A stretch of DNA of 64,000 bases from Bugula neritina (lineage: Eukaryota; Bryozoa; Gymnolaemata; Cheilostomatida; Bugulidae). Of the stretch, positions 1 to 61,341 are shown one piece after another. Below the pieces are notes generated by a model. That model worked only from the letters and a program-made list of their open reading frames with translations. It had not been told where the DNA came from and ran no database searches. The stretch lies in the NCBI GenBank assembly GCA_964035545.1, contig CAXIUT010000205.1, positions 1 through 64,000 of the forward strand. The letters run 5' to 3'. A program made the translations under genes and the position numbers. How positions within the stretch are numbered: position 1 is the first letter of the stretch; every line of letters starts with the position of its first letter.

Positions 1-1884
1 AGTACAATACAAATGTATTTTTTAAATAGAAAGGAATACACTTTTGATGTTTTACTTTCTATTAAAAGTAAAGAAAAAACGAGTTTAAATAGTTACAATA
101 CTATATTGTTTTTATTATTAGTGATTAAGAACATAAAAAAACAAGTTTTTTTAAAAGAACACTTGTTGGTTTTTAAAAAAGAAAAAAAACACATATTGTC
201 TTCTTTTTTAAAAAGAGAACCTTTTTCAAAGAATCAATATTTATTTAAGAATAAAACTGTACACTTACTATCAGATAATACGAAGTTTTTATCTAATAAT
301 ACCTCGGTAACTGCTACTAAGCAGGTGCGTTTTATACTTAGCTTTTTAAAAAAGTACCATTTCTTAAAAAATTATTTATCGTTTAAATCATGAAACTGAT
401 TTAATTACTTATCATTTAATAAATTAAAATTAAAAATGAGACTGTTTTTTTTTATTAATAGTTTCCAAAGTACAGTCAATAAAAGACTAAGATTATTTTT
501 TTTAAAAATAAAAAACAAGTTTTTTAATTTTTTAAATAGGTGAGCGAACACGAACCCAAAAATAATGCCTTTTCATAGACGGGCGAAGCTGTTTGCACAT
601 TTTAAAGGTTTTATAAGACATTTAAAACACCTATATGTTTCGAGATTAAATAATAATACTGGAAAAAAAAAACCTTCTTTAAATAGGTATCATACTTTGT
701 TTAACACCCATTTAAAATTCAAGTTTCTATCTATTTTAGGTAAAAGAAAATTATTAAAAGAATTAACTTTTCTCCATACAAGAAAAAAAATTTTAAAAAT
801 GTTCTTGAAAATCTATTATAATATTAATTATAATACTTTTTTCTACTTTATAAGAAACTTAAAGTATAAGCTTAATATAACAAAGATAAAAGACTTTGTG
901 TTTTTTTTGGAATATAAATCAAATATCTTTTTAAAAAAGTACTTTTTTTTAAATCTTAACGAGATAGAGAAGTTATACCAGAATAATTTTTTTAAAAAAA
1001 AACATTTGTCTAATTGCTTATTAAATATAGGTGATATAATTTATCTAAATAGGCATAGAACTAATTTAAATTATAAAAAGTTTATGTTATTTTTAAATTT
1101 TATTTTTTTTGTAGATCCTTTTAGATTAAAAAAAAAAAAACACATTTTAAATTCGTTATATAATTTTGTATATAACTCTTTGTCTTTTAATAAACTAAAA
1201 AAACATAATGTCTTTAAATCTACTAAAGCTCTTAATTTAAATACTATTAATAATTGATATGTTAATCTTTTTTCTAAGATATTACTTTTTAATAAAAAAG
1301 AAGCGCCTTACACTTTTTATAAAAGTGTAATTTGATTTTACAATCAAAATTATGAAATTAACAAAATAAATTCTATATCTACTAGTAGGACCAATCATTT
1401 ATATTTGAAATATTTGTTACCTCTTTTTTCAAGAACAAACTCTTATATACGATACAATCTTATTTCTTTTTGTAAAAAAGCAAATTTCAGTAACATATAT
1501 AGCCCCACTGGTGAGGTAAAAACATATATACTAAATAATAAATACTGAAAATTTAAAGACTGATTGATTAAGAATAAAAAAAATGTAGTAAAACACCTTT
1601 TAGTGAATAATCATAAAAAAAGTGTTTTTTCTAATTGACGTAGGTATAATAATCATTTTTATAGATGATCTAAATATAGTTATTATGTGAATAGACGTAA
1701 TACATTAAAAAATATTTTTTTTTCTAAAAAAAGATCTGTGTCTAAAAACTATATTATAAATAACAAATTAAGTCCTTATATAAAAGATACAACTTTTTTA
1801 CCATTAAATTATTATAAATTAAATCTATTAAAACACATCAATTTTTTTAATAATAAAAAAAGTAAATTGAAATCCATAATATAA
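1..1884 (+). CDS. rps4: Rps4-like ribosomal protein, 5' end cut by window start
   Basis: This is the 3' part of the large ORF complete at 57611-60001; see that entry for the reasoning. The frame is open from base 1 to TAA 1882-1884 with several in-frame TGA (Trp). Residues such as NIGDIIYLN near 1030-1060 resemble the end of an S4 RNA-binding domain. The gene name is tentative. Confidence 0.45.
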
Positions 1885-1888
1885 TTTG

Positions 1889-2815
1889 ATGTTTTTATAT
1901 AGTACCACACATTTTTTTATAAAAAAACATTGTTTTTTTATATATAAAAACGCCACACTTATTAGACACAAGCGTCTTTTTAAGGGGGTTAGGTCGTTAA
2001 TAAGACAGTTATTGGTACATTTGTTTGATTTGTATAAAAAAACTTTAAATAATTACAATGTTTATTTGAATACAATAAATTTAAAAAACAAATCTAACCA
2101 TAGTTATAATAACACTATTATAAAATTATTTTTGTATAGTTATTCTTTAATGTCTAATTTGAATGTCTTCAAAAAAGCTTTAAATAATTATGTCTTCTCT
2201 TTTTTTAGTATTTATTTAAATTTAAAGAATGTAGTATTTTTAAATAAAAAAACTTATTTATATAAGTTGTACATTTTTGTTTTTTTATATTATTTCTTTA
2301 GTGATTTAAAAGATACAAACTTTTTCGTATTAAACAAATTATATCTGTGTTTTAATTACTATTCTATAATAAATAGTTTTCATGACTCTTTAATAAAATG
2401 TTACTCCACTAATCTGAAGGTAGACTCATTGAACACTGATTCTATATTTAATAATAGTAACAATAAAATGTTTTATTTTTACCTGTTTAAAGTGCTTCGT
2501 TTTAAACATTTCAATTTTAATACGCCTTCGAGAACAACTGCTTCTTTTTATATATCATATAAATCCTCTTATTTAAATATATTTATTATGAGACATTTTT
2601 ATAGTAATTATAGGTCTTTTATGACACATTTTAAATATTTTTTATATGGATATAAAAAATATTTTTATACTTCTATGTATCTGTACTCCTCATGACGGTT
2701 TTTTTTTAGATACAGTTATGCTCGTTACTTAAATAGTCTAAATATAACAGCAAGATTAGATACAACAAAATCAAAAAAGTTAAAAAACGTTTTAAAACTG
2801 AAGTTTGTATTTTAA
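1889..2815 (+). CDS. Unidentified ORF, 308 aa, upstream of rpl16
   Basis: ATG 1889 to TAA 2813-2815, with an in-frame TGA at 2693 read as Trp. The protein is rich in Lys, Asn, Phe, Tyr and Ser. It starts with a basic stretch (about residues 15-40, RHKRLFKGVRSLIRQ) and ends with a basic tail (RYLNSLNITARLDTTKSKKL), which suits an RNA-binding or ribosomal protein. It lies 5 bp before rpl16, where bacteria and many mitochondria have rps3, but a clear rps3 is at 24585. I do not recognise it. It could be a divergent ribosomal protein. The frame could start three bases earlier with TTG, but ATG is preferred. Confidence 0.6.
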
Positions 2816-2820
2816 AATAA

Positions 2821-3222
2821 ATGAATAACATAAAAAAACCTTTTTTTAATAAAAGCATTAATATAAAAAATAGAGTGTTTTTCAACGATAATAGTTACTA
2901 TGTTATTGCAGGAGATACTTGTTTTTTGTCTAAAAAATGTATAGACTCTTGTCTTAGAATAATACGTTTTTATATTAGAAGAGCCACAACAAAAAAGAAT
3001 AAAAAAGTTATTACTTGTTTACAATTAAATATACCTGTTACCAAAAAAAGTAAAAAGACCAGAATGGGTGCAGGTAAAGGTAAAGTCAAAAAATTACTTT
3101 CTAAAGTGTACATGAATAGTATAATGTTTATTTTTAAAAACGTAAAACCTTTTATAATGTATAAAGTCTTTAAGTATTTAAAATACCATATGCCTATAAA
3201 GATATTAATATATAAAACATAG
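2821..3222 (+). CDS. rpl16: Ribosomal protein L16
   Basis: A 133-aa large-subunit protein that binds 23S rRNA near the A site. The glycine- and lysine-rich motif TRMGAGKGKVKK (about residues 80-91) is the L16 signature, preceded by a basic helix with IRRATTKKNKK. Length is normal for the family. The start ATG 2821 lies 5 bp after the preceding stop. Rpl14 follows after 2 bp, keeping the bacterial rpl16-rpl14 order (rpmC and rpsQ are absent). A second copy is at 60938. Confidence 0.9.
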   Translation: MNNIKKPFFNKSINIKNRVFFNDNSYYVIAGDTCFLSKKCIDSCLRIIRFYIRRATTKKNKKVITCLQLNIPVTKKSKKTRMGAGKGKVKKLLSKVYMNSIMFIFKNVKPFIMYKVFKYLKYHMPIKILIYKT

Positions 3223-3224
3223 AG

Positions 3225-3593
3225 ATGGTTTTAGTAGGTACACAATTACTTGTTTCAGATAATTCGGGGGCTATTTCAGTAAACTGTATAAAAATATTAG
3301 GTTCTAGTTTCTGTAATCACACTTATGTGGGTGATAAGTTAATAGTTTCAGTAAGAACTACATTTACAAGAGCGAAAACCTTACTACGTAATGTTTATAA
3401 GAGTGTTTTAATTAGACAAAAAACTTATACATATAGAAAAAGTGGTTTACGTATATGTTTTTCTTCAAACAGTGTTGTTCTTATAAAAATACGTAATGAA
3501 CCAATAGGTACTCGAGTAGTCGGATGTACTTTACAGGAATTAAGGTATAAAAAGTTTTTAAAGATAATGTTACTTTCTTGGAAAACCATATAG
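3225..3593 (+). CDS. rpl14: Ribosomal protein L14
   Basis: A 122-aa large-subunit protein and one of the best conserved here. It has the typical N-terminus with LVSDNSGA, a central VGDKLIVSVR strand, RKSGLRICFSSNSVVLI and a C-terminal PIGTRVVG. Length and motifs match bacterial L14. It is spaced 2 bp from rpl16 and presumably co-transcribed with it. Confidence 0.95.
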   Translation: MVLVGTQLLVSDNSGAISVNCIKILGSSFCNHTYVGDKLIVSVRTTFTRAKTLLRNVYKSVLIRQKTYTYRKSGLRICFSSNSVVLIKIRNEPIGTRVVGCTLQELRYKKFLKIMLLSWKTI

Positions 3594-3601
3594 CTTGTGA
3601 T

Positions 3602-4138
3602 ATGTTATTTTATAAAGATTACAATAGTTTTATTTATTTTTTAAATATAAAAGAGAAAGTACATTTTTTTTACAATAGGTTTAAGCAATGAACGAGCATA
3701 ATACAACTTTTAATACACCGTATTAAAATAAAATATACTATATTGCCTTCTATAGATAACAATATTATCTTTTCTAACAATAAATTATTTTTTAATAATT
3801 TATTTTTTAATACGTTTTTTAATAACAATAAAAATACTAAATATAATACATATTTTTTAAATATAAAAATAACATTGCTATTTAATAACCATTACTATAC
3901 ATTAATTAATATTATGAATAATACGTTTTATAAAAAAATATATATGGAAAAAACAAGATCACATATTAATTTCTTAAAACAAATTACAATTCATAATAAT
4001 AATATATATAAAGTCTTTAATAATGTGTTTTTACAATTAAAAAAAATTAAACCTATGTGTTATATATACTTCTTTTTTAATACAAACAATTATTTTTTTA
4101 ATAAATTAATACTAAGTCATTTGTTTATAAACATTTAA
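3602..4138 (+). CDS. Unidentified ORF, 178 aa, position of rpl5
   Basis: ATG 3602 to TAA, with one in-frame TGA (Trp, about residue 30). It is extremely rich in Asn, Phe, Ile, Lys and Tyr. In the bacterial order rpl16-rpl14-rpl5 this would be rpl5, and rpl5 is not found elsewhere in the window. The sequence shows no L5 motif I can point to, so the positional guess stays weak. It starts 8 bp after rpl14. Confidence 0.5.
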
Positions 4139-4141
4139 GAT

Positions 4142-5716
4142 ATGATGCTGCATTTATTTAAAACAAAACAAGTAGAAACAAAGAACGAATATATAGAGGG
4201 GTGATGTCGACTTATAGTCTCTAATGGTACCACATCTAGAGAAACAACTGAGCCTAATGAAATTTTAAACAACACAAAACGTAATGTATTTAACAATAAA
4301 GCTAAAGGACTTTTTAGAAGAACAGAGGTAATATTCAAGGCTAATAGATACTATTCTACATCTACTCACCTAAAAGAGAGAAAGTTTTGTCTTGACGTGT
4401 TTTCCAAAGATTGTCTTGACTTGTTGTCCAATCTAACAAATAATCTTGTAACACAGAAGAGATTATTTGTTAGAGGTACTTCTAATTTTAATTATTTTAA
4501 TTATTCTTATAAATCGAATAGGTATTTTAAATGAAATAGCTTATCTTATGAAAAAATGATTAAACTATTTTCTTATGAATTTAAAGAACTTAATAATGCC
4601 GTGCATATTTTTTTCTTTTCTTCTCTTTTAATTAAATATTTAGTATGTATATCTAAAAATAAAATATTTTTATTATTCAATGAATTTATATTTTTTAAAT
4701 TAAAGAATCTATTAAATATAATTTTTAAGAATTCTTTTAATAAGTTATTTAATTTAAATTATATAGAATATTTTTATATTTTTAATTACATCTACAAAAG
4801 AAAACATGATTTGTTTCTGTATAAATCCGAAGTAAAGAATTTATACAATAATGAGAAAGTACTTAGCTCTTTAAAAAAGAATTTACTTAATAAATTCTTT
4901 AGTAAGTATTGATTAAGAGGTAGTTACGTACATACATTTGTAATGAAATATATGTTACGCTTTTATAGAAACTTTTCTTCTAAAGAAGGTAAATATGTAA
5001 GACGTTCTTTTAAGAGATATAGCTTTCGTAAATTATTTGAACTAAATGCGAAGAATAATTGATTGGATAACATTTATAAGCCTTCTTCTAATAACAATTT
5101 AGAAAAAAAAATATTTCGTTACAAAAGTCTTTATAAAAAATATAAGTCTTTTTATAATACTTCTAATGTATCAGTCTACCGAGAAAATGGAATGGATAAA
5201 AGCCATTTGAAAAAAAAAATATTTCAGAAAAGATCTTTTAACAAACAAATATTTATTTATCAAATAAAAACATTATTTCACTTAAGTAAAAGTAATTTAA
5301 GAAGAAATCTCTTTTTGAATAATATACTAAAAACAAATTTTATTTTTAAACATAATAATTTGAAAAAGACTCTTATTAAAAAGTGTTTGACTAATTGATA
5401 TTGAGAGAAAACAACAAATGCTATGAAAAAAAATAAGAGATTTTTTTTTAAAAACAATACTTATTTAAAAAAAAATATGAGATATGCTTCTTATTATTTT
5501 AATTCTTTTTTTAAATATGAAATAAAAATAATAAATTATTTTTATTTATATTTAAAAAAAAGTTTATTTTATTTAAAAAGTACGGATATTTTTTCTATGT
5601 TCAAACAGTATATTTTCATTTATAAGTTCGATTGTACAAATATTAATATAGATAATTTAAATAAATTGTCTATCAACTTTTTTTTAAATTATAACGTAAA
5701 CTTCTTAAAAAGTTAA
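4142..5716 (+). CDS. Unidentified basic ORF, 524 aa
   Basis: ATG 4142 (a second ATG follows at once) to TAA, with several in-frame TGA (Trp). The protein is Lys/Asn/Phe/Tyr-rich. A basic patch around residues 275-305 (KYVRRSFKRYSFRKLFELN) vaguely recalls ribosomal proteins, but rps14 is clearly elsewhere (36813), so that identity is excluded. The first 100 residues have a less extreme composition than the rest. It starts 3 bp after the previous stop and ends 23 bp before cox3. Function unknown; a divergent ribosomal protein is the default guess. Confidence 0.55.
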
Positions 5717-5739
5717 CTTTTTTTTTTATAAAAACAAAT

Positions 5740-6624
5740 ATGTTCTCTAAAAATTATAGACCTCGTCATTATTATAATAATATTTTATTTACTCCTTGAC
5801 CTTTTTTTATCGGTGTTTGTTTATTTCAAATAATATTTGTATTTATATTCTTATTAAATAAATATTATTTATTTAGTTATACAATAACTTATCTAATTTT
5901 TTTTATTACATTATATATAACTATAGAATCAATAATACAATGATTTATGGAAATAGTTGAAGAATCTTTTTTTGGTAAGTATACAAAAAAACTTAGAGCA
6001 GCTCTTTCTTTTGGTTTTATGCTATTTCTAATTTCAGAAATAATGCTTTTTGGATCATTCTTTTGAGTGTTTTTTGATAGAATTTTTCATACTTCTTATG
6101 TAACAGGTTTTTTAACAGTACCTACAAGTATAGAGGCTATCAGATGATTTAAAGAACCTTTGTACGCAACAATTATATTAGTTGCATCAGGTTATACAGG
6201 TAATTACTCTTGTTATCTATATAAATCAAGGAAAATAGTATTAGCTTATCTGTTTAGTATTTTAACGAATCTATTAGGTATGTTTTTTTTATATATACAG
6301 TATAGTGAATATACTCATTTAGAATTTAGTATATCTGATAATGTGTACTGTAGTATTTTTTTTTTATTAACAGGTTTTCATGGGATTCATGTAATAGTAG
6401 GTAATATATTTTTATTTACACAATATCTGTTAAAGTTTTTTTATATTGATAATAAAGTATTTGGTTTAACATTAGCTTTAATATATTGACATTTCGTAGA
6501 TGTAATATGAATATTTTTGTTTGTATTTGTTTATGTCTTTAATAACATAGATTATCTGTTCTTAAAAGGAGAAGCACTTCTTTATTATAGTGAGAACTTC
6601 ACTTACTTTTTAAATAGCAGATAA
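5740..6624 (+). CDS. cox3: Cytochrome c oxidase subunit 3
   Basis: A 294-aa integral membrane subunit of complex IV. It shows the N-terminal RPRHYYNNILFTPWPF region, the TM3-4 segment SFGFMLFLISEIMLFGSFFW, FHGIHVIVG, and the C-terminal YWHFVDVIWIFLF motif with Trp from TGA. Length fits the family. TAA ends directly at the nad6 ATG (zero spacing). The first 144 bp are repeated at 63857-64000. Confidence 0.97.
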
Positions 6625-8318: not shown

Positions 8319-8399
8319 ATTACTTATGTATACTTGCTTACCTATTTTATACTTGCTTACTTGAGATCTTAAAGTTTTAAATATATATAATAATCTATT
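8319..8399. other. Spacer with short direct repeat
   Basis: 81 bp between rps2 and nad11. The 12-mer ATACTTGCTTAC occurs twice, separated by about 6 bp. No RNA gene is seen. Confidence 0.6.
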
Positions 8400-9038
8400 A
8401 TGTTAATAAATAATAAGAATATTACTTTTTCTTTAAAAAAATATAATATACAAAATTATATATTTTTAATAATAACGATTCTAGATGCTTTGGATATAGC
8501 ATTACCTAGATTCTGTTACCATGACCAATTAACTACCAGTGGTAATTGTAGAATGTGTCTTGTAGAATTAGAAGGTTCAACCGTGCCTTTAGTGTCTTGT
8601 TCTACTATTTACACGAACAATATGGTACTATATACACATACCTCTTTTTTAAGACAAAGTCAAGAATACATAATTGAATTTATATTATTAAATCATCCTT
8701 TAGATTGTCCTATTTGTGACCAATCTGGTGAATGTGATTTACAAGATATATCTTTAATATTTGGATCTGATAAAAGTAGATTATATCATGTCAAGAAATC
8801 TATAATTAATAAATATTTAGGTTATTTGATAAAGACAGAGATGAATAGATGCATTTATTGTACTAGATGCGTTAGGTATACTTTTGAAATAAACAATATC
8901 TATACATTTAATACTTTAGGTAGAGGGGTATATACTGAAGTGTCCAATTATTATGGTAATAATAATTCTTTTTATACGAGCTATATAAATGGTAATGTTA
9001 TTGATTTATGTCCAGTGTCTACTATAATTAATTATTAG
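8400..9038 (+). CDS. nad11: NADH dehydrogenase subunit 11, N-terminal Fe-S part
   Basis: 212 aa. Carries the complex I 75-kDa subunit iron-sulfur domain: the 2Fe-2S Cys set (CYHDQ...GNCRMC...LVSC), the His/Cys site HPLDCPICDQSGEC, and the 4Fe-4S set CIYCTRC...CP. The reading frame ends just after GNVIDLCPV with a short tail STIINY and TAG. In intact nad11 the motif continues as GAL.SKPY, which here begins the next ORF (9040). Thus only the electron-input half is in this ORF. Confidence 0.95.
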   Translation: MLINNKNITFSLKKYNIQNYIFLIITILDALDIALPRFCYHDQLTTSGNCRMCLVELEGSTVPLVSCSTIYTNNMVLYTHTSFLRQSQEYIIEFILLNHPLDCPICDQSGECDLQDISLIFGSDKSRLYHVKKSIINKYLGYLIKTEMNRCIYCTRCVRYTFEINNIYTFNTLGRGVYTEVSNYYGNNNSFYTSYINGNVIDLCPVSTIINY

Positions 9039-9039
9039 T

Positions 9040-10524
9040 ATGGGTGCATTATCCTCTAAACCGTATCTATTTAAAAATAAGACTTGAGAGCTCTTTAGTA
9101 TAGAGTCTGTAGACATTTTTGATAGTCTCTGTAATAAAATACAGTTTCATGTTAAAGATAACGTTATCGAGAGGGTGTTACCTAGAATAACATTACATTT
9201 AAGTGATGATTGGATAACTGATAAAATACGCTTTTGTTATGATGGTTTTTATAAGCAACGATTATCATTACCTGGGTATAACTATAAAAGACTATGTGTT
9301 GGTATTTCTTATTTATGACATTTAATGCTGTGTAGTTGACATTTGTGCTTTGATAAAATAAAAATAAGTTATTATTTATACTTTAATAAGAGTATGAATA
9401 ATTACCATTTTTATAGTGGGCACTTAATAGATACTTTTAGTTTATATTCGTTAAAACAACTATCTTCTTTTATTGGGTTTCATAATATCAATATAAATTT
9501 GAACTTTAATATCGATTTGAGGAAATATTTTATTTTTAATAATAATATTAATAATTTTGATTCTAATAATCTTTTCTTAATATTAGGTACTAATCCTAAA
9601 GTAGACACACCTATTTTGAACATTAAAATCAGGAAAATAAAATTTTATTTCAATAAAAAAATAGACATTTTTTATATAGGAAATAAAATGCTTATTAATT
9701 ATTCTATGATACATTTAGGTATTACAAATAAAAGTTTTACTAGTATATTATTAGGTAAAAGTTTCTCTTGTTATAGTATTCTTAAAGTTTGTAACATACT
9801 TTGTTTGTTTAGTATAAGTTTTAATTTAATAAAAAGTCATCTTATGTTGTTAACGTTAGATAACCTTTCTTTTTTTTTAAAAAAACAGAACTTCATTTAT
9901 AACTATATAACATTGTTTTCAAGTGATGTATCTATATATGAATTAGGTCTGAATTCGTATTACTACTCTAATAATTTATATATTAATAGATCTAAATTGA
10001 ATTGAATATACTTATTAGGAGTAGATTATACGAAGCATATGTTTTTCAAATTAAAAAAAGTTTTCTGTATATATCATGGACATCATGGTGATAATGGTAT
10101 TTCTAGTTCGAATATTGTTATTCCTAGTAAAATGTTTATTGAAAATACAAGTTATTTTCTAAACTGTGAGGGACGTTTTTTTATTACAAATACTATTATC
10201 AATAGCGAGAAAAAAGAAAATTCGAATGAATCTATTTTATATAATTTATTTACTTATATAAGTAAGAAGTTAATTAAATACATAAAATTAAAAAACTTAT
10301 TTACAGTGTTTTTTTATAAGTTACCTGTTTTTTTTACAAAATATAAATTTGTTTTAAAAAAGCATATAAAATGTTTTTTTAATTTACCTAATAAGTTGTT
10401 TAAGTGTTTTTTTTTTAATAATGTTTGAAATTACTATAATTTAGACGTAATAAGCAAGAATTCTTTTTACTTATCTTTTATACGTAATACAAACTTTTTT
10501 ATTTATAATTTCATACGTGTCTAA
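9040..10524 (+). CDS. nad11: NADH dehydrogenase subunit 11, C-terminal part (separate ORF)
   Basis: 494 aa, read in a different frame from the preceding ORF. It begins MGALSSKPYLFKNKTWELF, which continues the conserved nad11 motif interrupted upstream at CPV. The rest corresponds to the molybdopterin-oxidoreductase-like domain and diverges strongly, with a K/N/F-rich C-terminal half that still contains ILGTNPK. ATG 9040 is 1 bp after the TAG of the Fe-S ORF. The 3' end overlaps the possible GTG start of orf256 by 8 bp. Confidence 0.9.
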
Positions 10525-11287: not shown

Positions 11288-11453
11288 TATTTAAAACTGT
11301 TTATACGATTATTCTTATATTTCCGATGATTATTATACGGTATCTGAAATAAAGCACAATAAGCTTATAAATATAAGCGTTACTTTCTAACTGAAACACA
11401 AAATAGGGATACACTTGAGTACCTGTTTTTTAGTTGAGACTTTAAATTACGAA
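11288..11453. other. Spacer before atp3 with small hairpin
   Basis: 166 bp between orf256 and the chosen atp3 start. It holds a 6-bp hairpin GCTTAT-AAAT-ATAAGC around 11364-11380. The last 39 bp are open in frame with atp3 from TTG 11415. Confidence 0.4.
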
Positions 11454-12266
11454 ATGAATTATAAATTAGCTAATGACCTTCGTTTGAGATATTTTAAAAT
11501 ACATAAAATTTGTAAGTCGATTGAACTAGTGACCTTATCGTTATTACATCTTTACAAAAAAAAACAAGAAACGGTCTTTTTTATAATTAGATTACTAAGC
11601 TGTTCTAATATATTACCTTTACAAATATCCAACTTTGTAAGTTTAAAATATTTATTAGTACCTTTTTTAACAGACAAAAGTTGTAGTGGTATACTTAATC
11701 ATTCAGTGTGGCACAAATCTAAAAACATATTTGACTTTTTTAATTATAAAAATATAATAGTACATATACATGGTACGAGTTTAAAATTTAAAAAATATAT
11801 AAATCTTTTTTCTTTAAATAAATACAGTATAGGTAATATTTTATTTTTATCAGATGAGAGTGTAAGTTATTATATGTCTTATGTCTTATTTAAATCAGTA
11901 ATGCATTTAAAGTACAGTCTATTTATTTTAATATTTAATGAGTGTTTAAACATCTATAGTCAATCGACAAATTATTATATTTTTTTGTCTTTATCTTTGT
12001 TTTTAAATATAATTATATTAGATAGATTTTTTTTATTAAGCAATAAAAAAATTTTAAAAAACTTATATTTTTATATAAACACTATAACGTTGTTAGATCT
12101 ATTACAAAATAATTGGTTTAGTGAGTTAGGCAGCAGAGCTACTTCAATGAAAAATTCTATTACCAATTCCAAAGAAAATCTGGATCGTTATACTTTGTTA
12201 TATAACCGTTTTAGACAATCTAAAATAACTAATGAAATAATTGAGATCATATCTTCTTTATTATAA
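11454..12266 (+). CDS. atp3: ATP synthase F1 gamma subunit
   Basis: 270 aa. The C-terminal block ATSMKNSITNSKENLDRY followed by YNRFRQSKITNEIIEIISS is the diagnostic end of F1 gamma (bacterial: AMDNA...N..R...IT.EI.EI..GA). The N-terminal helix (NDLRLRYFKIHKICKSIELV) fits the 'lkxRIxSixxtxkIT' start. The frame is open from 11391 and TTG 11415 is possible; ATG 11454 is preferred for family length. The rotor subunit is rarely mitochondrial-encoded. The neighbour atp6 starts 3 bp after the stop. Confidence 0.9.
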   Translation: MNYKLANDLRLRYFKIHKICKSIELVTLSLLHLYKKKQETVFFIIRLLSCSNILPLQISNFVSLKYLLVPFLTDKSCSGILNHSVWHKSKNIFDFFNYKNIIVHIHGTSLKFKKYINLFSLNKYSIGNILFLSDESVSYYMSYVLFKSVMHLKYSLFILIFNECLNIYSQSTNYYIFLSLSLFLNIIILDRFFLLSNKKILKNLYFYINTITLLDLLQNNWFSELGSRATSMKNSITNSKENLDRYTLLYNRFRQSKITNEIIEIISSLL

Positions 12267-12269
12267 TTT

Positions 12270-13070
12270 ATGTTTTTTGAATATATTAATCTTTTTATTT
12301 ATAATAACGTCAATAGTTTGAGTATACTATTTTTTAATGCCTTTGAGGGGTTTAGTATTGAGTACATAGATTTATGCTTTTTATGAAATAAAAATATGTT
12401 TTATTTCTTATTAACTTTTGTATTACTAAGGTTTAGTTTAATGTTTGTTTTATTTAATAATAACATATTAATGTCTCTAGTATGTGTTAACTATATACAT
12501 GAATTTTTTAAATTCATTTTTAATTTAATATTAAATTATGTTAAATACAGAATTAATATTTTTTATTATTTTATTAGTTATATATTTTTTATTATTTTTT
12601 TTAATAATGTTATTGGTTTACTACCATTTAGTAGTACAATTAATAGTCATTTTAATATAACTATCATATTATCATTCATCTGTTGATTTGGAATTATGTT
12701 AATAGGTTTTGCTAATTTTGGCAGAAATTTCATTTCTCTTTTTTGTGTATCAGGTATACCTGGTGTATTAGTACCGTTTTTAGGTGGTATTGAAATATTA
12801 TCTTATTTTTTTAGATTTGTAAGTTTATCACTTCGTTTATTTGCTAATATAGTAGCAGGCCATGTCTTATTAGAAACCATATATGTGTTTACTTTTTTTT
12901 TTCTACTAAATTATTATAGTATCACTTTTCTAAATTTTATATGTTTTTTATTTCCTTTACAATTTCTTGTAATATTAATAATGTTTGAAACAGTAATCTC
13001 TTTTTTACAAGCTTATATTTTTGCAGTGTTATCATTGATTTACTTAAAAGATTCGTTATATTTACATTAA
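12270..13070 (+). CDS. atp6: ATP synthase subunit a
   Basis: 266 aa, Fo proton-channel subunit. The catalytic helix motif SLSLRLFANIVAGHVLLE (with the essential Arg) is clear, preceded by VPFLGGIEILSYFFR and an earlier NVIGLLPFS segment. About six membrane helices. TAA is one base before the cox1 ATG. Confidence 0.97.
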
Positions 13071-13071
13071 T

Positions 13072-14235
<1,164 letters not shown>

Positions 14236-16194
14236 GGTTTCGCTGATTCCGGAAAAACTTGTTTTCCTATTACTGATCTAATAAAGGAAATTAATATGTA
14301 TATAAGGCTCAAATTTGTCTTACAAGTATTATATGTATTAACGGAGGTTGCTACTATAATTTACATGAACGGTCACATAATGAACTTGTCTCTTATGTGT
14401 TTAGGTATGACCCCCTTGAGCGTGTGTTTTTACTTTCATATACACCTTTTTATGATAAGAACTAATTTTTGTTATAAATCGAAATATAAAGTGACAGTAC
14501 ATAAAGTACTCATAGACTATGTAGTTAGTTTAAATCGATCAGTAGTGCTTTTTATATATAAATATATAGGGGTGAACTACGATAGTAGCAGACTCAATAC
14601 AAAGGTGAGTTTTTTTGCAGGGCAGCTTTATAAAAATATAAATAAAGAAATACAATGAATTGATTTCTTTCTCTTGAGAAAACTTATTTATTTTTTTATA
14701 TTGAGAATATATGCGATGGACTGAGACGTATTAACAATATTGTCGAATAAGATTTTTTTAATTTTTTTAAAGATTAATTCTTATTTCCTTAGTGTATATA
14801 GCGGGTATAATATAGCTTCAATAGTTTGTTTCAGAAGACGTGATTTTTTCATTGATGAAAAGTTTAACAATGATAAGTTATCATCTATTATAAACACTCA
14901 CATATCTAATAATACATGACCTATGAAAGATAGTTTCGTCAGTTCTAGAATTAGATTATTTATTATTGCTTTGAAGAGTCATATAGCGGTATTAACAAGG
15001 CAAGATTTGGTTAAAGAGAGAATATCTTTAAGTAATTACTATTCCTTTCATTTATATAATAGATTGTACTCTATACAATCTATTAAAAAGACTAGCCACA
15101 TTAACGATGAAGAGTGCTTAAATTTGTTAAATAAAACAAGATATATTCATTTTATAAAATACAATGTACAACTAGGTATTGTTAATATTATAGATCTAGT
15201 TTTGCAGAAGATGCTTCTTAACATCATAGAACCTTTTTACGAAGCATCTTTTAAAAAAATAGCAAACCACGCGTTTTTCTGTGTTAGCTCTGCTGTACAG
15301 AAAGTGTTTGAGTTATTAGGAGAGACGAACAAGGTTTTTATACATTTAGATCTACGTGATAGCTTTAATAGTATTTCTAGAAAGCGTTTATTAGGTATAT
15401 GAGTACCTACACCTTTTAAAAAAGCAGTGATATATTGGTTTCACTCATCTCTAAATGTGCCTTCTCATTATAAAAAAAGTAATCTAGGTCCACTTTTTTG
15501 TAGTATACTGTTACAAAAAATATCCAAAAGTGTTTATAAAGAATCTCCTTATTTTCACTCAATAGGTGTGAAAAGCCCTTATACACATTGCATTTATTGT
15601 GCAGAGTCTTTAACACTGATATTTAATGTAGGGTGTAAATATGTGGTATTAAAAAAAACTTACGAGTATCTCGATCGGCTTTTTTTAAAAAAAACTACTA
15701 TATCTCTTATCAGAGATAGGACAACTGTCTTTTCTAATTGGAGTAAAAGCCTAAAAATAAATTATTTAGGCTTTACTTTTAATTATAACCCGTCTTTACT
15801 TTTTGTGAATAAATCTCTATCTTTTTATCAGAGAGAGGGTACTTGCTATAAATTGAGAATATCTGTTTTAATGTCTTGTTTGAACACCCATAAATCTAAA
15901 ATAAAAAAACTAATTAGAAAAAACTATCATAGTCGTGTAACGAAATTGATACGTTTGTTAAACACTATAATAAGTAGGTTTTTAACTTATTATAAGTTTT
16001 TCCCTCAATTAAGGAATGTTTTTTCATATTTAGATACCTTTGTGCATTCTAGAGTACTTATATTTTTAAAAAAAAAATATAAAAACACCCCTATTAATAA
16101 AGTGATAAAAAAACATTTTATTATCAAGTCTTGAACTTTTACAGATGGTTTTGGGGTCAAAGCAATTCGCTTAATAAAACATAGTAAGTCTTAA
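14236..16194 (+). CDS. Intron-encoded reverse transcriptase/maturase, RT site degenerate
   Basis: A 652-codon frame continuous with cox1 exon 1, ending TAA 16192-16194, with in-frame TGA as Trp. RT-like blocks are seen: [12 protein letters not shown] (for EPxFxxxSxGFR), [13 protein letters not shown] (RT block 3), and [12 protein letters not shown] where active enzymes have YADD, so the catalytic Asp pair is lost. A domain-X-like region is present ([13 protein letters not shown] ... [15 protein letters not shown]). The likely role is splicing helper without reverse transcription. The first about 230 residues overlap intron domains I-III, as in fungal exon-fused intron ORFs. Confidence 0.8.
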
Positions 16195-16448
16195 AAAACC
16201 TTTTTATATCTTTTTTTTGTTTTAATATACTTTTTTTTAATGGTTTTTTCTCTAAATATTCAGATATTAAGAAGAATTAAATAAAACCTGACTTATTCCT
16301 CTGTCTTTCTCGCAGGAATTTCTCTGTCTTTATCGCAGGGAATAGAACATGACGTTTTCCTCTGTTCTTCTCGCAGAAGCGAGTTTTTTTTCTTTTTAGA
16401 AAGAAGAAAACTTTTTTAAAAAACGACTTTTTTTTATTAAAATAACTT
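16195..16448 (+). repeat. Spacer with three copies of a CTCTGT..CTT.TCGCAG repeat before atp9
   Basis: Three imperfect copies of a ~20-bp unit (CTCTGTCTTTCTCGCAG-like) at 16297-16317, 16321-16341 and 16358-16377, all just upstream of atp9. Long T-runs flank them. These repeats are GC-richer than their surroundings. They may be processing or promoter elements for atp9, or simple slippage products. Confidence 0.75.
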
Positions 16449-16667
16449 ATGGTTGCAGAATTCAAATTTTTAGGTGCAGGTATAGCAACAGTAGCTCTTT
16501 CGGGTGTAGGTAACGGTATAGGTTACATTTTCAATGGATTATTAAATGCTGTAGCAGTTAATCCAAGTCTTACTAAAGTATTGTTTAATTACGCAATTAT
16601 CGGTTTTGCTTTAACTGAAGCAATTGCGTTATTTACTTTAATGATTGTTTTTTTAATTTTGTTTTAG
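16449..16667 (+). CDS. atp9: ATP synthase subunit c
   Basis: 72 aa, Fo ring subunit with two membrane helices. It shows [20 protein letters not shown], the polar-loop region [10 protein letters not shown] and the proton-carrying Glu in [10 protein letters not shown]. The gene is complete and lies inside the cox1 intron, between the maturase ORF and domain V. Confidence 0.98.
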
Positions 16668-16935
16668 TATTGTATGGTTCTTAGTATTTAGTAATATTAA
16701 GTTATCAGATAATCCAAGATGCACTGTGAAATTCTTTCCTTCTTTGTATTATTATTTATAAATAATAGCAAGTGATAGTAAAGTGCAATTAGAACAAGTA
16801 TTGTATATTCCAAAATATCAAGTAATACTTAGAGATATTCTTATGTAAATAATTTTCTGAAATAATATAAATATGATGTAAATATTATTTCATGCAATTT
16901 TTTATACTTTAATTAAATGTAAAAGTACACGTAGA
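16668..16935 (+). other. Intron 3' non-coding segment (after atp9, before domain V)
   Basis: 268 bp with no ORF. It presumably combines the atp9 3' UTR and the 3' flank of intron domain IV. Its composition is AT-rich and I see no strong hairpin before domain V. Confidence 0.5.
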
Positions 16936-16969
16936 GAGCGTAGTACTAGGCGACTGGTTTGCTGTGTTC
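16936..16969 (+). ncRNA. Group II intron domain V
   Basis: Exactly 34 nt, the canonical length. The 5' strand starts GAGC and the 3' strand ends GTTC. A nine-pair lower stem, a two-nucleotide bulge (16959-16960), a five-pair upper stem and a GCGA (GNRA) tetraloop at 16950-16953 all fall at standard positions. The catalytic AGC triad is at 16937-16939. Confidence 0.93.
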
Positions 16970-17016
16970 GGAGGGAGTTTAGTAAACAGATATGTTTTTG
17001 TAAGAACTATCCCAAT
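16970..17016 (+). ncRNA. Group II intron domain VI and 3' splice site
   Basis: The GGGAG strand (16973-16977) pairs with CTATCCC (17007-17013). The unpaired A 17009 is 8 nt from the intron end and is the predicted branch point. The intron ends with AT at 17016, followed by cox1 exon 2. Confidence 0.8.
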
Positions 17017-18084
17017 TATGTTGTTGCTCATTTTCACTATGTATTATCAATGGGTGCTGTGTTTGCTATCTTTTCTGGTTTTTATTATTGATTTGGTAAA
17101 GTAACAGGATATCAATATTCTGAAACTTTAGGTAAATTACATTTTTGACTTACTTTTATAGGTGCTAACATAACCTTTTTTCCAATGCACGTCTTAGGGC
17201 TTTCAGGAATGCCTAGAAGAATACCCGATTATCCAGATATGTATGCAGATTTAAATATACTTTGTTCGATAGGTTCTTTGATAGCTAGTTTAGGGTTGTT
17301 GTTATGGTTCTATGTAATAATAGATGCGTTTTTTAATCAAATAAAATGTGCTAGTAATCCTTGACAGATCTATCCTTCTTATGAGGAATTTTTAATTAGA
17401 GTGTGAAAAGTGTCTAAATACTTAGATAGCTCTTTCGACTTAAATAGTACTTCTAATTACATTTCAGATAAAAATACACTAATATCTTCTTTAAAAAGTA
17501 AAAAAGTTGATCTTCAAACGTTATCTCATTTGATTTTAAAAGATAATCTATTTGATATTAGTAATGGTGTATTACATATATGAATGAGATTACATAATAG
17601 GTATAAATATACTTTAGAATTTAATTCTAAAAGTTACAAAGTAGATACGTTAGAGTGAACACTCACATCACCTCCAGCATATCATACTTTCACTAAACCT
17701 ATAAAAATAATTATAACTGCAGAGAAGTACAATACATTTAAATTTAAAAATAATAAAAAAGCTTATATTGATTACACTTCTTCTATAGAAGGTAACTATT
17801 TTAATAGTTTTATATTTTCAGGTAATATTTTAAGTACTATTTATATGTCTTATAATAATAAAAATATAGATACCAATATAACTAAAGATTATGTTGTAAA
17901 AAAGAAAAATGTCTGCAATACATCTAAATCTAATTTATACGTTTCTTCGTATATGTACAAGTTGGACCATAGATTATTCTCTAATTTCTTAAGGAACAGA
18001 GCTATAAATTTAAGTTTTTTAAAAGATAATGAAAGATTATCTGATTTGTTCTTTAAAAAAGTATTAATTGATAGTTTAAAATAA
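17017..18084 (+). CDS. cox1: Cytochrome c oxidase subunit 1, exon 2
   Basis: Continues exon 1 in phase: [19 protein letters not shown] with the heme and CuB His ligands, then [19 protein letters not shown] and ASNPW. Between NPW and the conserved [15 protein letters not shown] there is an extra segment of about 95 residues. A further ~115-residue hydrophilic tail follows to TAA 18082-18084. Joined to exon 1 this gives 743 aa, versus about 520 in most species. Confidence 0.95.
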
Positions 18085-24584: not shown

Positions 24585-27500
24585 ATGTCGATGTCTAATA
24601 CTATATCTCTAAGACAGTTTTTTATATGAAATTCTAATTGATTTTGTGATTTTAATTATTATAATTTAGTTTTTGAGGATATCAAGATCTCTAAATATTT
24701 GAATGATATATTTTATAATTTTGGGTTACCTACAAGTAATTTTATTATAAAAAGATATATTAATCAAATGATTATACAATCGAATATACATTTTAATTTT
24801 TTATATAAAAAAGTACATCTTAAGATTCAAAGATTAAAATATCTTTTTAGAAGACATAAAAAATTTTCATTAAATAACTTTCTATTAAAAAAAAACACTT
24901 TTTTTATTTTTAGAGAATATTTACATTTTTTTTTTGAATTTTTTTTTTTAAAATCAAAATCTTTAAGTTGAAACATTAAAGATTTTTTTAATTTTAACTT
25001 TGTTTATTTTAAGTTTAAAAAAAATAAAGTTATAGATTTGTTTTATAATTCTTTTTGTAATAAAAGAAAGAAATTAAAAAAACTATTTTTTGATTCTTTA
25101 TTAAAATTAAAGACTCTTAGAAATAGTAAACAAATTAGATTTTTTGTTTTGAAATATATATTTCTTTTAAAAAACCATTCCGACTTTTCAGAAAAAAGTA
25201 TTCAAGTACAAAACAAGTCTAAAAGACGTCTTAAAGTGTTTAATACTAGTCTTGTTAGAAACCAGCTAAAAAACACGACTTATTTCTTCGACTTTATTCC
25301 TTATACCGATTATACTATTCTTCGAACACCTATTAAAAGTTTCTCTGTTAATTTCGATATAAAGTTGAAAGATATTCTATTTGAACCTTTCCAATTAAAA
25401 GAGACTATTTTAGTTAATAGCAGGTTGTTTTTTAGTAATAAGTTATTATTTAAACACAACGATAAACCAAATAACAATTACAAGGTACATAGTACAAATA
25501 AATCAAATAGCAGTTATAAAGCATATAACAATAATACGCAAACACATTCTTTTAAAGGAGATAATAGGTACAATAGAAAAAACCACTTCAAAGCTAGACG
25601 GTATAAACGTAAGTTTATACCTGCTACTCGTCAGCATAATAATGATAACAAGTATAAAACGTTTAGTGCTTTTAAAAAAGCAGTAGATAATATATTTAAT
25701 AATAAAATAGATCTATTAAAGAGACTAATACGTAATAAGTCTAAGTACAATCAGTTATTTCTAAAAAAACCAAATACTCATAAAACTTTTTTCAATTGAA
25801 AAAAAATGAAAACGCCGGCGTTTTTATCTTTTTTCAATTATACTTCTAAAAAGAGTGTCTTTAAAAGTACAAATAACATATTGTGTTCTCTTCTAATATC
25901 AGTATTACTTTTTTTCTTTATATATTCAAAAAATGAAAGCTCTAATTTAAGAGCTTTCCAGAGAGTATTTAATAACTATAAACAGTTTATAGTAACTTAT
26001 ATAAAATCTAATAGTGTATTTTACTTAAAAAAACCTTCTCACTTTTTAAAATATTATAATACTTCAAATAAACACTTCCACAGAAAAAAATTATCAAAAA
26101 ATAAAAAGGTACAATTACCTTTTTATTTTTTTAAAAGATATTACAATTATGTTATGACATTGTGTGCACTTGACACGAGTATAAAAAAAACATTTTATTA
26201 TAAATATGTTTTCAATGTACAAGATTTGTTATACTTATATAATGATAATACCTTTTATATACAGAAGAATATCGTTTTCTTTAATAGTGCTCTTAGGCAC
26301 TTTATTTTATCTATGAATTTAGATAATGTGTATTACACAACTCTTATTTTTTTTTTTAAAAAAAAATTTAAATTATTTAAAAAACCTCTTTCTATAAAAT
26401 GTTATTTTTTAAAATATCTAAATTCTTATATGAATAATACTAATTTGTTAATGTTATTATTAGTCATGGATAATTTAAAGAACGTACATGTTTATAAAAA
26501 CATTCTTTTATATAAACGTTTTAAAAATAATGTATATATAACATATAAGTACTCTAACTCTATTAAGAACAACTCGGTGGATAAAACAATGTGAAAGTTT
26601 CACGCAAGGTATACTATTTTTAATAAATATGTACATATTAACAATGCTTATTTAAAATTACTTGATTTTAAAACCACATTTGCGTTTTTTCAAGATTTAA
26701 CAACGTATTTAAAAATGAATATAAATTGGATTTTTAATAAGAACAAATATTTTTCTTATAGTATAAATTTATTAAATAATATAGTTATACACAAAACAAC
26801 TAGTAATATCTCTAGATTAGACAGTAATGTGTTTTATAAAGAAAATTCGTTCAAAAGATTTAACTATTTTAATAGCTTTATAATAAACAACAACCTTTTC
26901 GAATCCATGTATAAGCACTTTCGACCTTGTTCTGAAGACAAGTTTAGTGCTAGTACTTTAGATAAGTACAACTATTTGATATACTTGTTTAGTACTCATG
27001 GCTCTTTGAATACACATTTAAAAAAAGTAATTGTGTTTTTTAAAAAAAATACATTACTTTTTAATTGGTTTAATAAGATAATAGTAACAAACATCTTTAA
27101 AAATGTTTTTTATGTATTTAAAAATGTATTATTTTTAACTTTAAAAAAAATGAAAATTAATAGGAATATATTTTATAAAAACAATGTCTTATTAATTTTC
27201 AACTATTTTATTAATAACTATATTGTTAATAAGGTTATACACAGATATTATAACAACTACAACCTATTTAGTAGTATATATTTATGTTATAATAGTAATT
27301 TCAATTTTAAAAATTATATAGAAGATATAACATTACTATTTACAATGAAAAACAATACCTTTTCTTATTATTATTTAAAATATATAACTTTAAATTTGTT
27401 TTATTTTTTTTATAGTCTTGAATCTACTATTTCTATTTATAGTAATCAAAATTGTTTTTTACTATTAATATATAATTTTAAAACTATAAATTTTTTTAAT

Positions 27501-27914
27501 AGTGCTAAAATATTATGTGAATTTATTACACTACATTTAAAAAAGAAAATGACAATTAGAAAAGTGTTTTTTTTTATAAAAAAAAAACAGAGGTCTGAAA
27601 TGTATCGAAAAAATACACTCATTAGAGATAGAAAGAACAAATTTGTTAAAAACTTTTTTATAAATTATAGATTTCCTTTAAAAGGTATACGTGTCTTATA
27701 TTCAGGTAATCTAAAAAAAGCTAAAAGAAAAAAAAAAATTAGTTATTTTGTATGACTATCAAATATATTGTATAGTGGTAAAATGCCTTTTAGACAATTC
27801 AAATATTATATTGATTATCATAAAAGATCAGTTTTCTTAAAGAATGCTAGTGTAGGTATTAAAGTATGGTTGTTGTATAATATTTATAAAAAAAAAAACA
27901 TAGATGTCGAATAA
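24585..27914 (+). CDS. rps3: Ribosomal protein S3, giant form (1,109 aa)
   Basis: A single frame with TGA as Trp. Residues 1-110 match the S3 N-terminus (IWNSNWFCDFNYYNLVFEDI then YLNDIF). The last ~90 residues match the C-terminus: FPLKGIRVLYSGNLKKAKRK, GKMPFRQFKYYIDYH and SVGIKVWL. About 900 Lys/Asn/Phe-rich residues separate them, against ~230 aa for all of bacterial S3. No stop or clear intron boundary is seen in the insert. The start is fixed by adjacency to the rps19 stop. The end overlaps rps8 by 11 bp. Confidence 0.85.
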
Positions 27915-32055: not shown

Positions 32056-32126
32056 ACTCCTATAGCTTAAAGTAAAAGCAACATACTTTACATCTGTAGA
32101 TAGTGGTGCGAAACCACTTGGGAGTA
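32056..32126 (+). tRNA. tRNA-like gene, possibly tRNA-Val
   Basis: All seven acceptor pairs form (ACTCCTA/TGGGAGT), with TA at positions 8-9, D stem GCTT/AAGC and T stem AGTGG/CCACT. The T loop is TGCGAAA instead of TTCGA(A/T)T and the D loop lacks GG. The anticodon stem is imperfect. Loop TTTACAT would give anticodon UAC (Val), a register shifted by two would give UUA. No other tRNA-Val is seen, but identity is unsure. Confidence 0.55.
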
Positions 32127-38313: not shown

Positions 38314-40416
38314 ATGTATTTACTTCCTATTTATTTTTGTATATCCTCTTTTTTATTTTCTTTTTTTTTCGGGAGATGTATTCTTAAAGAACACTTTTTA
38401 TTATTAATTATAATAAATTGTTATTTATCTTTTTTTATTTCTGTGTATATATTTAATGAAGTTTGCTTCCATCATATAAATACATATATCTTTATCTTTC
38501 CTTGATTAAAAATAACAACTCTAAATATATATTGATCTTTTTTATTCGATCCTTTATCAGCAACCATGTTAGTGGTGATAACATCAATATCACTTTGTGC
38601 CAATCTATATTCTATAGAATATATGTTTTATGACCCTCATAAAGTCCGATATTTCACATATTTATCTGTTTTTACATTTTCTATGCTGATGTTAGTAACA
38701 TCAAATAATGTACTTCAACTGTTTTTTGGTTGAGAGTTTGTAGGTATTTCTTCTTATTTATTAATAAACTTTTGATATAGTAGGATACAAGCAAATAAAT
38801 CCTCTATCTTAGCAGTAATGGTAAATAAAATAGGTGATATATTTTTATTATATACCTGTTTCATTTTACAAAAAACGTTTTCTAGTTTAGATTTTAATGT
38901 AATCTTTTTATGTCTGAATTCTTATGATTCTTATATAAATGTGTTCTTTTCTTGTATAGAAAATTCTATTTGTTATGAATTAATGTGGAACAATAACTGT
39001 ACTACATTAAGCTATATAGTCTTCTATAAAAACTTATTAGAAGAAATGTTCTTATATGATATTTCTAATAGTATTTCTTCTACGAATTTCTTATTTTATT
39101 CTAATTTAATATGTATTTTTGTTTTTATAGCCTCTATATGTAAATCAGCACAATTTGGTTTTCATTTTTGACTTGCAGAAGCAATGGAAGGTCCTACACC
39201 TGTATCTTCGTTATTACATGCTGCTACCATGGTGACTGCAGGTATTTTTTTAACTATAAGGATGAGCTTTTTATTTGATTATAGTACATATGTACCTATT
39301 TATATAATCTTTCTAGGTTCAATAACCACGTTTTTTAGTTCTATCATAGGTGTCACACAAAATGATATAAAAAAAATAGTAGCTTATTCAACTTGTAGTC
39401 AACTTGGTTATATGTATTTAAGTACAGGTATTTTTGCTTATAGCAATAGCATGTTTCATTTATTTAATCATGCTTTTTTTAAAGCACTTTTATTTTTATC
39501 TTCAGGTTATTTGATTCATTCTTTATCGAATGAACAAGATCTCAGAAAGATGGGGGGTTTAATAAAACTCTTACCTTTTGGTTATTTTTCTTTACTAATT
39601 GGTTCAATGTCTTTAATGGGAATACCTTATTTTTCAGGTTTTTTTTCTAAAGATATGATAATAGAAAATTTTTATAGTACTTTTGTAGTAGATCTAAATA
39701 ATATAAATAAATACCCTATTATTTATTTTTCTCAACTAATAGCACTAATATCTGTTGTTTTTACAATAGTATATAGTTTAAAAATAGTATTTTATGTTTT
39801 TCTTAATAGTTATAGTGGTTTACGCTATTATATAAACAATATCCACTTCTCTACATATTATATAATATTACCTGTGTTTTTTTTAGCACTATTAAGTATG
39901 ACTAGTGGTTATTTAACGAATGATTTGATGATTGGTACTGGTACGACTTTTTGGGGTAATTCAATAAATACTTCTAGTATGGTAGGCCTTTTTAGTAAAA
40001 AACATTATTATATAATATTATTTTGTGAATTTAAAAAATATACTTACTATTTAATTTTTTTTTTTAGTATTTATTATTTAACTTTATTTATATATTTTTT
40101 TTTTTTTGTTTCTAATTTATTTAAAATAAAATACTTAAATAAGTTATTCGTACATTTAAATAATAAAGTAATTTTTTTTAATAAATTGCTTATTTCTTCT
40201 ATCTTATATTCTATCTATTATATGTCTTATAATGTCTTTTATAAATTAGTAGATAAAAAGATCTTTGATTTCTTTTCTTCATTTAGCATAATATTTTATA
40301 TAAAAAATATAACTCTATTATTAAAAAAAAAAAAATTAAATATTATATATAACCCTATAGGAAGTATAATATTTTCTTTAATATTTTTTTTTATGTTTTT
40401 TATAATCATTATATAA
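38314..40416 (+). CDS. nad5: NADH dehydrogenase subunit 5
   Basis: 700 aa. Antiporter-like subunit with FDPLSATMLVVITSISLCAN, FFGWEFVGISSYLLINFWY, EGPTPVSSLLHAATMVTAGI, QNDIKKIVAYSTCSQLGYM and HLFNHAFFKALLFLSSG. An insertion of about 70 residues lies between NKIGDIFLL and the conserved KSAQFGFHFWL. TGA Trp codons occur at conserved sites. Stop 40414-40416, one base before cox11. Confidence 0.97.
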
Positions 40417-40417
40417 T

Positions 40418-41170
40418 ATGTATTTCTCTCTTTTAGAGAGTAAGTTAAAGAAGTACAATAACAAACCTTCTTTAATGAGAATAAGTTTTTTTTTATTAAT
40501 TGTAATGTGAATTAATTTTTTTTTTTATTCCTTGATCACAATAACTATCTATAAGTTATTGTGTTTTAATGTGGACTACTTTATATTTAATGTATATAAA
40601 TTAAATAAAAATATTAATGTTTTTTATAGTTTAACTGGTTTTTTAGAAACTTGTTTAAGTTACAACTCGGTAGAGAGTTATAGTTATAACAGTTACTCTA
40701 TAAGCAATTGTTTAAAACCATTTAATATTTTTTATATATTAGATGTAGTCGAATTCAAATACTTATATTTAATAGATAAAGAAGATTTAAATATGAATAA
40801 TAATATAATGTTTAATAATCTTATATATTTAAATTTTTATATAAGATCAAGTAACTTCTTATGGGTAGATGTGATATCACTACAAAAAACATTGATTATT
40901 AACATAGGTGAAACCGTTTTATTTTTTTTTAGGATGTTTAACCCTACACATTTCAATTTGAAATTGATTACTATATATATAGTACATCCTAATGAAACCT
41001 CTCTGTATTTAAATAAAATACAGTGTTTTTGTTATAATTTAATGTTTTTATATCCATTGGAGCTAATCGATTTACCAGTGTTGTTATATATTGATAGCCT
41101 TTATATATATTTTTATGATTTGAAGTTGTATAATACATTCTTTGTGTACTATATAACTTTCTTCAATTAA
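40418..41170 (+). CDS. cox11: Cytochrome c oxidase assembly protein Cox11
   Basis: 250 aa. One N-terminal membrane helix followed by an intermembrane-space domain. The C-terminal part carries the Cox11 copper motif YLNKIQCFCYNL (for FnKIQCFCFeeQ), then LELIDLPVLLYIDSLY (for vdmPVfFyIDPe) and YNTFFVYYITFF. Cox11 delivers copper to CuB of cox1. Mitochondrial-encoded cox11 is known from very few eukaryotes (jakobids). Upstream nad5 ends 1 bp before. Confidence 0.92.
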
Positions 41171-60001: not shown

Positions 60002-60005
60002 TTTG

Positions 60006-60932: not shown

Positions 60933-60937
60933 AATAA

Positions 60938-61339
60938 ATGAATAACATAAAAAAACCTTTTTTTAATAAAAGCATTAATATAAAAAATAGAGTGTTTTTC
61001 AACGATAATAGTTACTATGTTATTGCAGGAGATACTTGTTTTTTGTCTAAAAAATGTATAGACTCTTGTCTTAGAATAATACGTTTTTATATTAGAAGAG
61101 CCACAACAAAAAAGAATAAAAAAGTTATTACTTGTTTACAATTAAATATACCTGTTACCAAAAAAAGTAAAAAGACCAGAATGGGTGCAGGTAAAGGTAA
61201 AGTCAAAAAATTACTTTCTAAAGTGTACATGAATAGTATAATGTTTATTTTTAAAAACGTAAAACCTTTTATAATGTATAAAGTCTTTAAGTATTTAAAA
61301 TACCATATGCCTATAAAGATATTAATATATAAAACATAG
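60938..61339 (+). CDS. rpl16: Ribosomal protein L16 (overlap copy)
   Basis: Same predicted protein as 2821-3222; probably the same gene seen again after one full circle. Confidence 0.9.
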   Translation: MNNIKKPFFNKSINIKNRVFFNDNSYYVIAGDTCFLSKKCIDSCLRIIRFYIRRATTKKNKKVITCLQLNIPVTKKSKKTRMGAGKGKVKKLLSKVYMNSIMFIFKNVKPFIMYKVFKYLKYHMPIKILIYKT

Positions 61340-61341
61340 AG

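Follow-up and report, generated by a model that had tools for sequence, protein, structure and literature searches.

The cox1-atp9 locus

The window, i.e. the whole stretch of 64,000 nucleotides that was analysed, comprises bases 1-64000 of a 65,006-bp contig (C196) from the assembly of the bryozoan Bugula neritina, and is taken to be the mitochondrial DNA (mtDNA) of a companion protist. Its cox1 gene is broken between the codons TAC and TAT, after ...HDTY, by an insert that holds the reading frame of a degenerate maturase, a complete atp9 gene and a group II domain V. The elements follow each other on one strand in the order exon 1, maturase, atp9, domains V and VI, exon 2. This region was found once in the assembly, with no second copy or rearranged half. 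Its features are as follows.

13072..14235, + strand: cox1 exon 1, 388 codons, ending ...IALHDTY; Pfam COX1 E=3.4e-117, profile positions 1-341 of 436
14236..17016, + strand: putative group II intron, 2,781 bp, 5' GGUUUCG ... AAU 3', delimited by codon phase, Cox1 homologues and domain V
14236..14883, + strand: intron start in frame with exon 1, presumably domains I-III; codons 1-216, upstream of the reverse transcriptase (RT) homology
14605..14610, + strand: candidate exon-binding site 1 (EBS1) GUGAGU, pairing 6/6 (one G-U) with the intron-binding site 1 (IBS1) ACUUAC at 14230-14235
14884..16194, + strand: degenerate reverse transcriptase plus maturase domain X, without endonuclease; from TIGR04416, GIIM and an LtrA alignment
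16195..16448, + strand: spacer of 254 nt from the maturase stop to atp9, with direct repeats and a hairpin followed by U8
16449..16667, + strand: atp9, 72 codons, ATG...TAG, complete; Pfam ATP-synt_C E=1.4e-9
16668..16935, + strand: AT-rich spacer of 268 nt, presumed from its position to be the 3' part of domain IV
16936..16969, + strand: domain V, 34 nt, with 9-bp and 5-bp stems, GCGA tetraloop, UU bulge and AGC triad
16970..17016, + strand: region of a plausible domain VI, from the RF00029 alignment; A17009, which lies 8 nt before the 3' end, is the candidate branch point
17017..18084, + strand: cox1 exon 2, 355 codons plus stop, starting YVVAHFHY; Pfam COX1 E=3.5e-32, profile positions 341-436

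Exons and intron boundaries

The Pfam COX1 match leaves exon 1 and re-enters exon 2 at the same profile position, 341. For comparison, Cox1 relatives were taken from a contig search with exon 1, and the best 80 of at least 593, nearly all bacterial, were considered. The break point is spanned by 79 of these 80 loci, all of which are gap-free there; at the junction they carry variants of HDTY[Y/F]VVAHFHY, the twelve residues being continuous in 79/79, and every one of them has Tyr or Phe directly behind the junction. The boundaries 14235/14236 and 17016/17017 are fixed by the codon phase together with these uninterrupted homologues. Other phases were tried by hand and gave a wrong residue or unfitting ends; a cut between TACG and AT, for instance, would place Asp where the 79 homologues have Tyr or Phe. 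The statement in the preliminary description of this DNA that cox1 codons are split by 2.8 kb is thus borne out.

Viral contigs searched with cox1 exon 1, nad7 and the maturase gave no relatives. It was also observed that Cox1 has a C-terminal part of about 250 residues (window 17329-18081) and a long insert between ...NPW and a 15-residue stretch, which are normally adjacent.

The maturase

A single open frame (13048-16194) runs from upstream of cox1 through exon 1 into the intron, and its intron-encoded part amounts to 652 codons in frame with the exon. Domain X was recognized by Pfam GIIM at residues 550-627 (E=9e-11, 42 bits, cut-off 23), which agrees with the earlier claim of a maturase reading frame fused to exon 1. 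NCBIfam TIGR04416 (group_II_RT_mat) matches residues 312-614 with E=8.7e-15 and 54.7 bits, below its cut-off of 300, and LtrA of Niallia matches residues 250-628 with 22.5% identity (E=9e-7). In this one pairwise alignment, the YADD of LtrA is replaced by YCAE, and the TPQGG block as well as the C-terminal endonuclease-like region are absent; YADD and TPQGG are what we take to be the usual names of these RT motifs. As judged from the alignment, therefore, the YADD and the endonuclease domain of a mobile group II retroelement are missing.

Among 40 bacterial matches listed (best E=2e-4), the longest show homology to group II RTs from residue 211-217 onwards. A search of the PDB with the whole maturase gave three weak matches (best E=0.005), and none with the C-terminal part alone; a search of a phage collection returned distant retron-type reverse transcriptases only.

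The atp9 gene and its spacers

The Pfam ATP-synt_C match of atp9 scores 38.5 bits against a cut-off of 24, and NCBIfam PRK07558 covers residues 3-72 of 72 (E=1.5e-16, 60.3 bits, below the cut-off of 85). The glutamate of helix 2, presumably the proton-binding site, is kept within a stretch of ten residues. The GC content at third codon positions (GC3) is 0.167, like that of reference gene segments from the same genome (0.186). A complete atp9 between the maturase and domain V, as had been proposed, was thus found. In the whole assembly, atp9-like genes occur in three places, namely in the window, in an animal-type nuclear gene and in a second protist mtDNA (contig C65); no further copy was found in the mitochondrial genome of the window.

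From the maturase stop to domain V there are 741 nt, made up of the 254-nt spacer, atp9 and the 268-nt spacer. The first spacer carries three imperfect 22-nt direct repeats, starting at 16295, 16318 and 16356 (16295-16377), and these were not met elsewhere in the window when up to 3 mismatches were allowed; they may be a processing or recombination site. The same spacer contains a hairpin with a trailing U8 (16370-16391). In the second spacer (16668-16935), no significant pairing with the 5' side was detected.

Intron RNA signatures

A strict domain V pattern (9+5 bp, GNRA, AGC) has a single site on both strands of the 58-kb genome and none in 20 first-order resamples of it; this domain V folds as expected, with a z of -2.54 and 5/200 shuffles folding equally well. 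In a search of 3.3 kb, Rfam RF00029 matched 16934-17016, i.e. domains V and VI up to the last base of the intron (35.4 bits, below the gathering score of 40; E=1.5e-4); the match was unreported in both Rfam scans of the whole window. The intron ends in AAU, of which AU fits the expected AY. The candidate branch point, A17009, stays unpaired in the centroid and is paired in the minimum free energy (MFE) fold, so that domain VI is only plausible: of the textbook domains V and VI announced earlier, the former is present with all its elements and the latter is less certain. A second group II intron was sought elsewhere and rejected, there being no other strict domain V and, in a looser scan, one further site (52450) against 1.05 expected.

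About 650 nt at the start of the intron precede the RT homology, which is the usual room for domains I-III. Their GC3 is 0.282 against 0.186 in the ten reference gene segments (binomial p=6e-4), which is in line with a structural role, although GC3 is also raised in the remainder of the maturase (0.227, p=0.03). An inverted repeat (14344-14357/14582-14595) lies just 5' of the EBS1 candidate. The best long-range helix within 14236-14885 was discarded as evidence, the same being reached by 4/40 resamples.

A probable cis-spliced intron with a cargo gene, and its alternatives

The arrangement is best explained, with a probability of about 0.75, by an immobile, cis-spliced and maturase-assisted group II intron that carries a housekeeping gene in domain IV, where the ribozyme normally accommodates large inserts. 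The intron would be removed in cis from a plus-strand transcript that includes genes next to it (order atp3, atp6, cox1). The maturase would be made from unspliced RNA, by reading cox1 exon 1 straight into the intron, and would aid the folding of the intron that encodes it. As for atp9, it would sit beside the maturase gene as further cargo in the domain IV loop and be translated either from precursor that is still unspliced or from intron RNA after its release or processing. Since the maturase has lost RT motifs and is without endonuclease, the intron would now be immobile; since the only atp9 copy found in this mitochondrial genome lies inside it, precise loss of the intron would delete that gene. 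Intron and atp9 may in this way hold each other in place. A bolder version, to which a low probability is given, has one precursor shared by complexes IV and V, where unspliced RNA would yield the maturase and the c subunit and spliced RNA the cox1 mRNA; splicing would then set the Cox1/Atp9 ratio, and the nested gene would make the intron impossible to lose.

Several observations weigh against the cis-spliced intron. The insert begins with GGUUUCG at 14236 and not with GUGYG, nor was GUGYG found in the next 33 nt. This sequence is given as the 5' consensus that group II introns 'mostly' have (PMC10012718), and since altered 5' sites have been reported (PMC4424553), its lack is not treated as excluding a group II intron. 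An Rfam search that admitted E values up to 10 gave no match for domains I-III, and 14236-14960 does not fold better than shuffled sequences do (z -0.90; 3/20 shuffles fold as well). The EBS1 match is at chance level, a hexamer of this kind being present in 446/1000 resamples of the region. The location of atp9 in domain IV, put forward in the preliminary description, agrees with the order of the elements, whereas no closing stem above chance accompanies it: the best candidates, from 14760-15010 and from the spacer after the maturase, were matched by 29/200 and 160/200 resamples, respectively, and neither was retained as evidence, nor was the pairing of the atp9 flanks (59/100). Finally, cis-splicing would fail if transcription ended at the hairpin-U8 between the maturase and atp9.

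This last element is the one feature that could favour two transcripts, and bears on an unlikely alternative, in which the intron is bipartite and splicing occurs in trans between one transcript with exon 1 and the maturase, ending in the spacer that precedes atp9, and another that begins in this spacer and has atp9, domains V-VI and exon 2. The break would then fall within domain IV, as in most trans-spliced group II introns (PMC4424553); the hairpin-U8 lies between the maturase and atp9, and the three repeats stand just before atp9. Split or trans-spliced cox1 has been described in Isochrysis galbana (PMC9551565), Chroomonas placoidea (PMC5910586) and Marophrys (PMC6425028), although in the last of these no intron motif was detected. 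The region 16150-17050 holds one terminator-like site against 0.2 expected, while promoter-like sites there are at chance (5 found, 4.6 expected). Of three successive 20-kb stretches of the genome, the second and third have terminator-like sites in excess (8 vs 2.3 and 12 vs 4.8 expected), so some of them may be real in this genome; the first stretch, which holds the locus, has them at chance (3 found vs 2.5 expected). The two halves lie collinear and near each other on one strand, at the one locus found rather than at distant ones, and no second copy was found, which makes splicing in cis the simpler explanation; the DNA gives no reason to assume two transcripts, and cis is preferred on that ground. 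A nested gene spliced in cis or a bipartite intron spliced in trans had been offered earlier as the two options; the pair was correctly chosen, but they are not equal.

It is also conceivable, though with a very small probability, that cox1 is not spliced at all, its parts being translated separately, or that the intron is dying and the functional cox1 or atp9 is nuclear. The non-canonical 5' end and the unrecognized domains I-III would suit such a state, and a nuclear copy can be imagined since the nuclear genome of the protist was not located in the assembly. However, the frame of exon 2 (from 16882) has no ATG before a conserved 11-residue stretch, unusual start codons aside, and the exons, atp9, domain V and domain X are all conserved without stops; an in-frame maturase of 652 codons would hardly survive unused in DNA of 24% GC. 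Least probable of all is an assembly error that put atp9 into the intron. The locus is on one contig and outside its duplicated overlap, which leaves some room for this, but the ends of the contig overlap perfectly over 6,889 bp, and the atp9 or cox1 region of this organism was found on no other contig.

Comparison with known systems

Introns of the yeast aI1/aI2 type have an open reading frame fused to the 5' exon, as in the window; to our knowledge, neither these nor introns with degenerate maturases have a housekeeping gene beside the maturase. Group II trans-splicing is reportedly present in Diphylleia rotans. Intron-encoded proteins without YADD or other RT motifs that keep domain X, like the maturase of the window, are known in MatK and Oceanobacillus O.i.I2 (PMC4424553).

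Nested genes have been described in group I introns. The hexacoral nad5 intron (ND5-717) holds nad1/nad3 and up to 16 genes and resembles the window in that housekeeping genes lie in a peripheral segment of the catalytic intron of another essential gene, with splicing maintained; it differs in being group I, with a different ribozyme and different genes, and in Corallimorpharia it is removed by back-splicing (PMC6545197). Similarly, in filamentous ascomycetes a ribosomal protein gene, rps3, is nested in a mitochondrial intron of rnl, but this intron is group I (in hypocrealean fungi) and interrupts an rRNA gene (PMC4570212).

A close case is the cox1 of Chroomonas placoidea, where a maturase is fused to exon 1 and other mitochondrial genes precede exon 2; there, however, 13 genes lie between the exons and the case is listed as gene fission (PMC5910586), whereas the 2.8-kb intron of the window houses a single gene and has its domain V in place. 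Isochrysis galbana likewise has a split cox1 with a group II-like segment beside exon b, but its exons are at separate loci, and the extract of the source describes no nested single gene (PMC9551565). Among openly licensed literature, for which titles and abstract openings were listed, no housekeeping gene in a cis mitochondrial group II intron was found, which is not proof of absence. The remark that no standard case is known has to be qualified by the group I examples and by the near case of Chroomonas. What appears to be new with respect to these systems is a compact group II intron, still with its maturase and domain V, that has an entire ATP synthase gene within it.

The mitochondrial genome and its assembly

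The window is a circular mitochondrial genome read beyond its origin. The sequence of the contig recurs with a period of 58,117 bp and a perfect overlap of 6,889 bp, as it should in a circular molecule, and window 1-5883 recurs perfectly at 58118-64000, so that genes near either end are counted twice. UGA is read as Trp, and open frames were taken under code 4. Besides rRNAs and tRNAs, Pfam matches, from which the gene names are our own reading, identify cox1-3, cob, nad1, nad3, nad4L, nad5, nad6, nad7, nad9, nad11 (two open reading frames, ORFs), a nad8-like ferredoxin, atp1, atp3, atp6, atp9, tatC, a CtaG/Cox11 gene and ribosomal proteins; two further Proton_antipo_M proteins are read as nad2 and nad4. 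The genes atp3, atp6 and cox1 lie in that order on the plus strand.

The whole assembly has 215.8 Mb and includes, on a 35.6-Mb contig, an ATP5G-like gene that is interpreted as an intron-containing nuclear gene of an animal. It is because of this animal-type gene that the window is assigned to a companion protist. A chlorarachniophyte origin was considered and set aside, as that group is reported to have mtDNAs without introns and with 42-50% GC (PMC4757882).

Some other observations were made on this mtDNA. Among solved structures, the atp3 product is matched best by 6ynw_g, which we take to be the Tetrahymena enzyme. Both atp3 (ATP synthase gamma, 11391-12266) and the CtaG/Cox11 gene (40406-41170) are uncommon in mtDNA, as reported for atp3 (PMC9551565, PMC5910586) and for cox11 (PMC6425028). 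The nad11 region (8394-10524) consists of two overlapping ORFs in different frames, for the iron-sulfur and the molybdopterin part, and is either a split gene or a frameshift. A tRNA called by ARAGORN at 32056-32126 has the anticodon UUA and would read UAA; this is the stop codon in 25 of the 31 ORFs checked, and the anticodon is probably mis-set. An rps3-like ORF of 1,109 codons (24585-27914) matches the S3 C-terminal domain only below the threshold (24.7 bits, cut-off 34.1); rps3 is usually far shorter.

Two other contigs carry related genes. The mtDNA of C65 (loci L005-L011) is a second, different protist mtDNA in the assembly, with 17.5% GC and presumably ciliate-like; its cox1 is uninterrupted at the intron site and carries an in-frame insert. 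A contig filed as a Zoogloea metagenome-assembled genome (L012, 30% GC) has an apparently mitochondrial cox1, 65% identical to that of the window and likewise uninterrupted at the site, together with nad4L, and is a probable contamination.

Implications

Group II introns usually carry their own protein only. If the explanation given above is true, a housekeeping gene in domain IV would show a simple way for a selfish intron to turn permanent, because its deletion would remove an essential gene. The locus would also plausibly represent a stage midway from cis introns to split genes like the cox1 of Chroomonas. It raises the question of how one RNA serves as both the cox1 precursor and the atp9 message, for the cell would have to remove the intron and yet still read the gene inside it.

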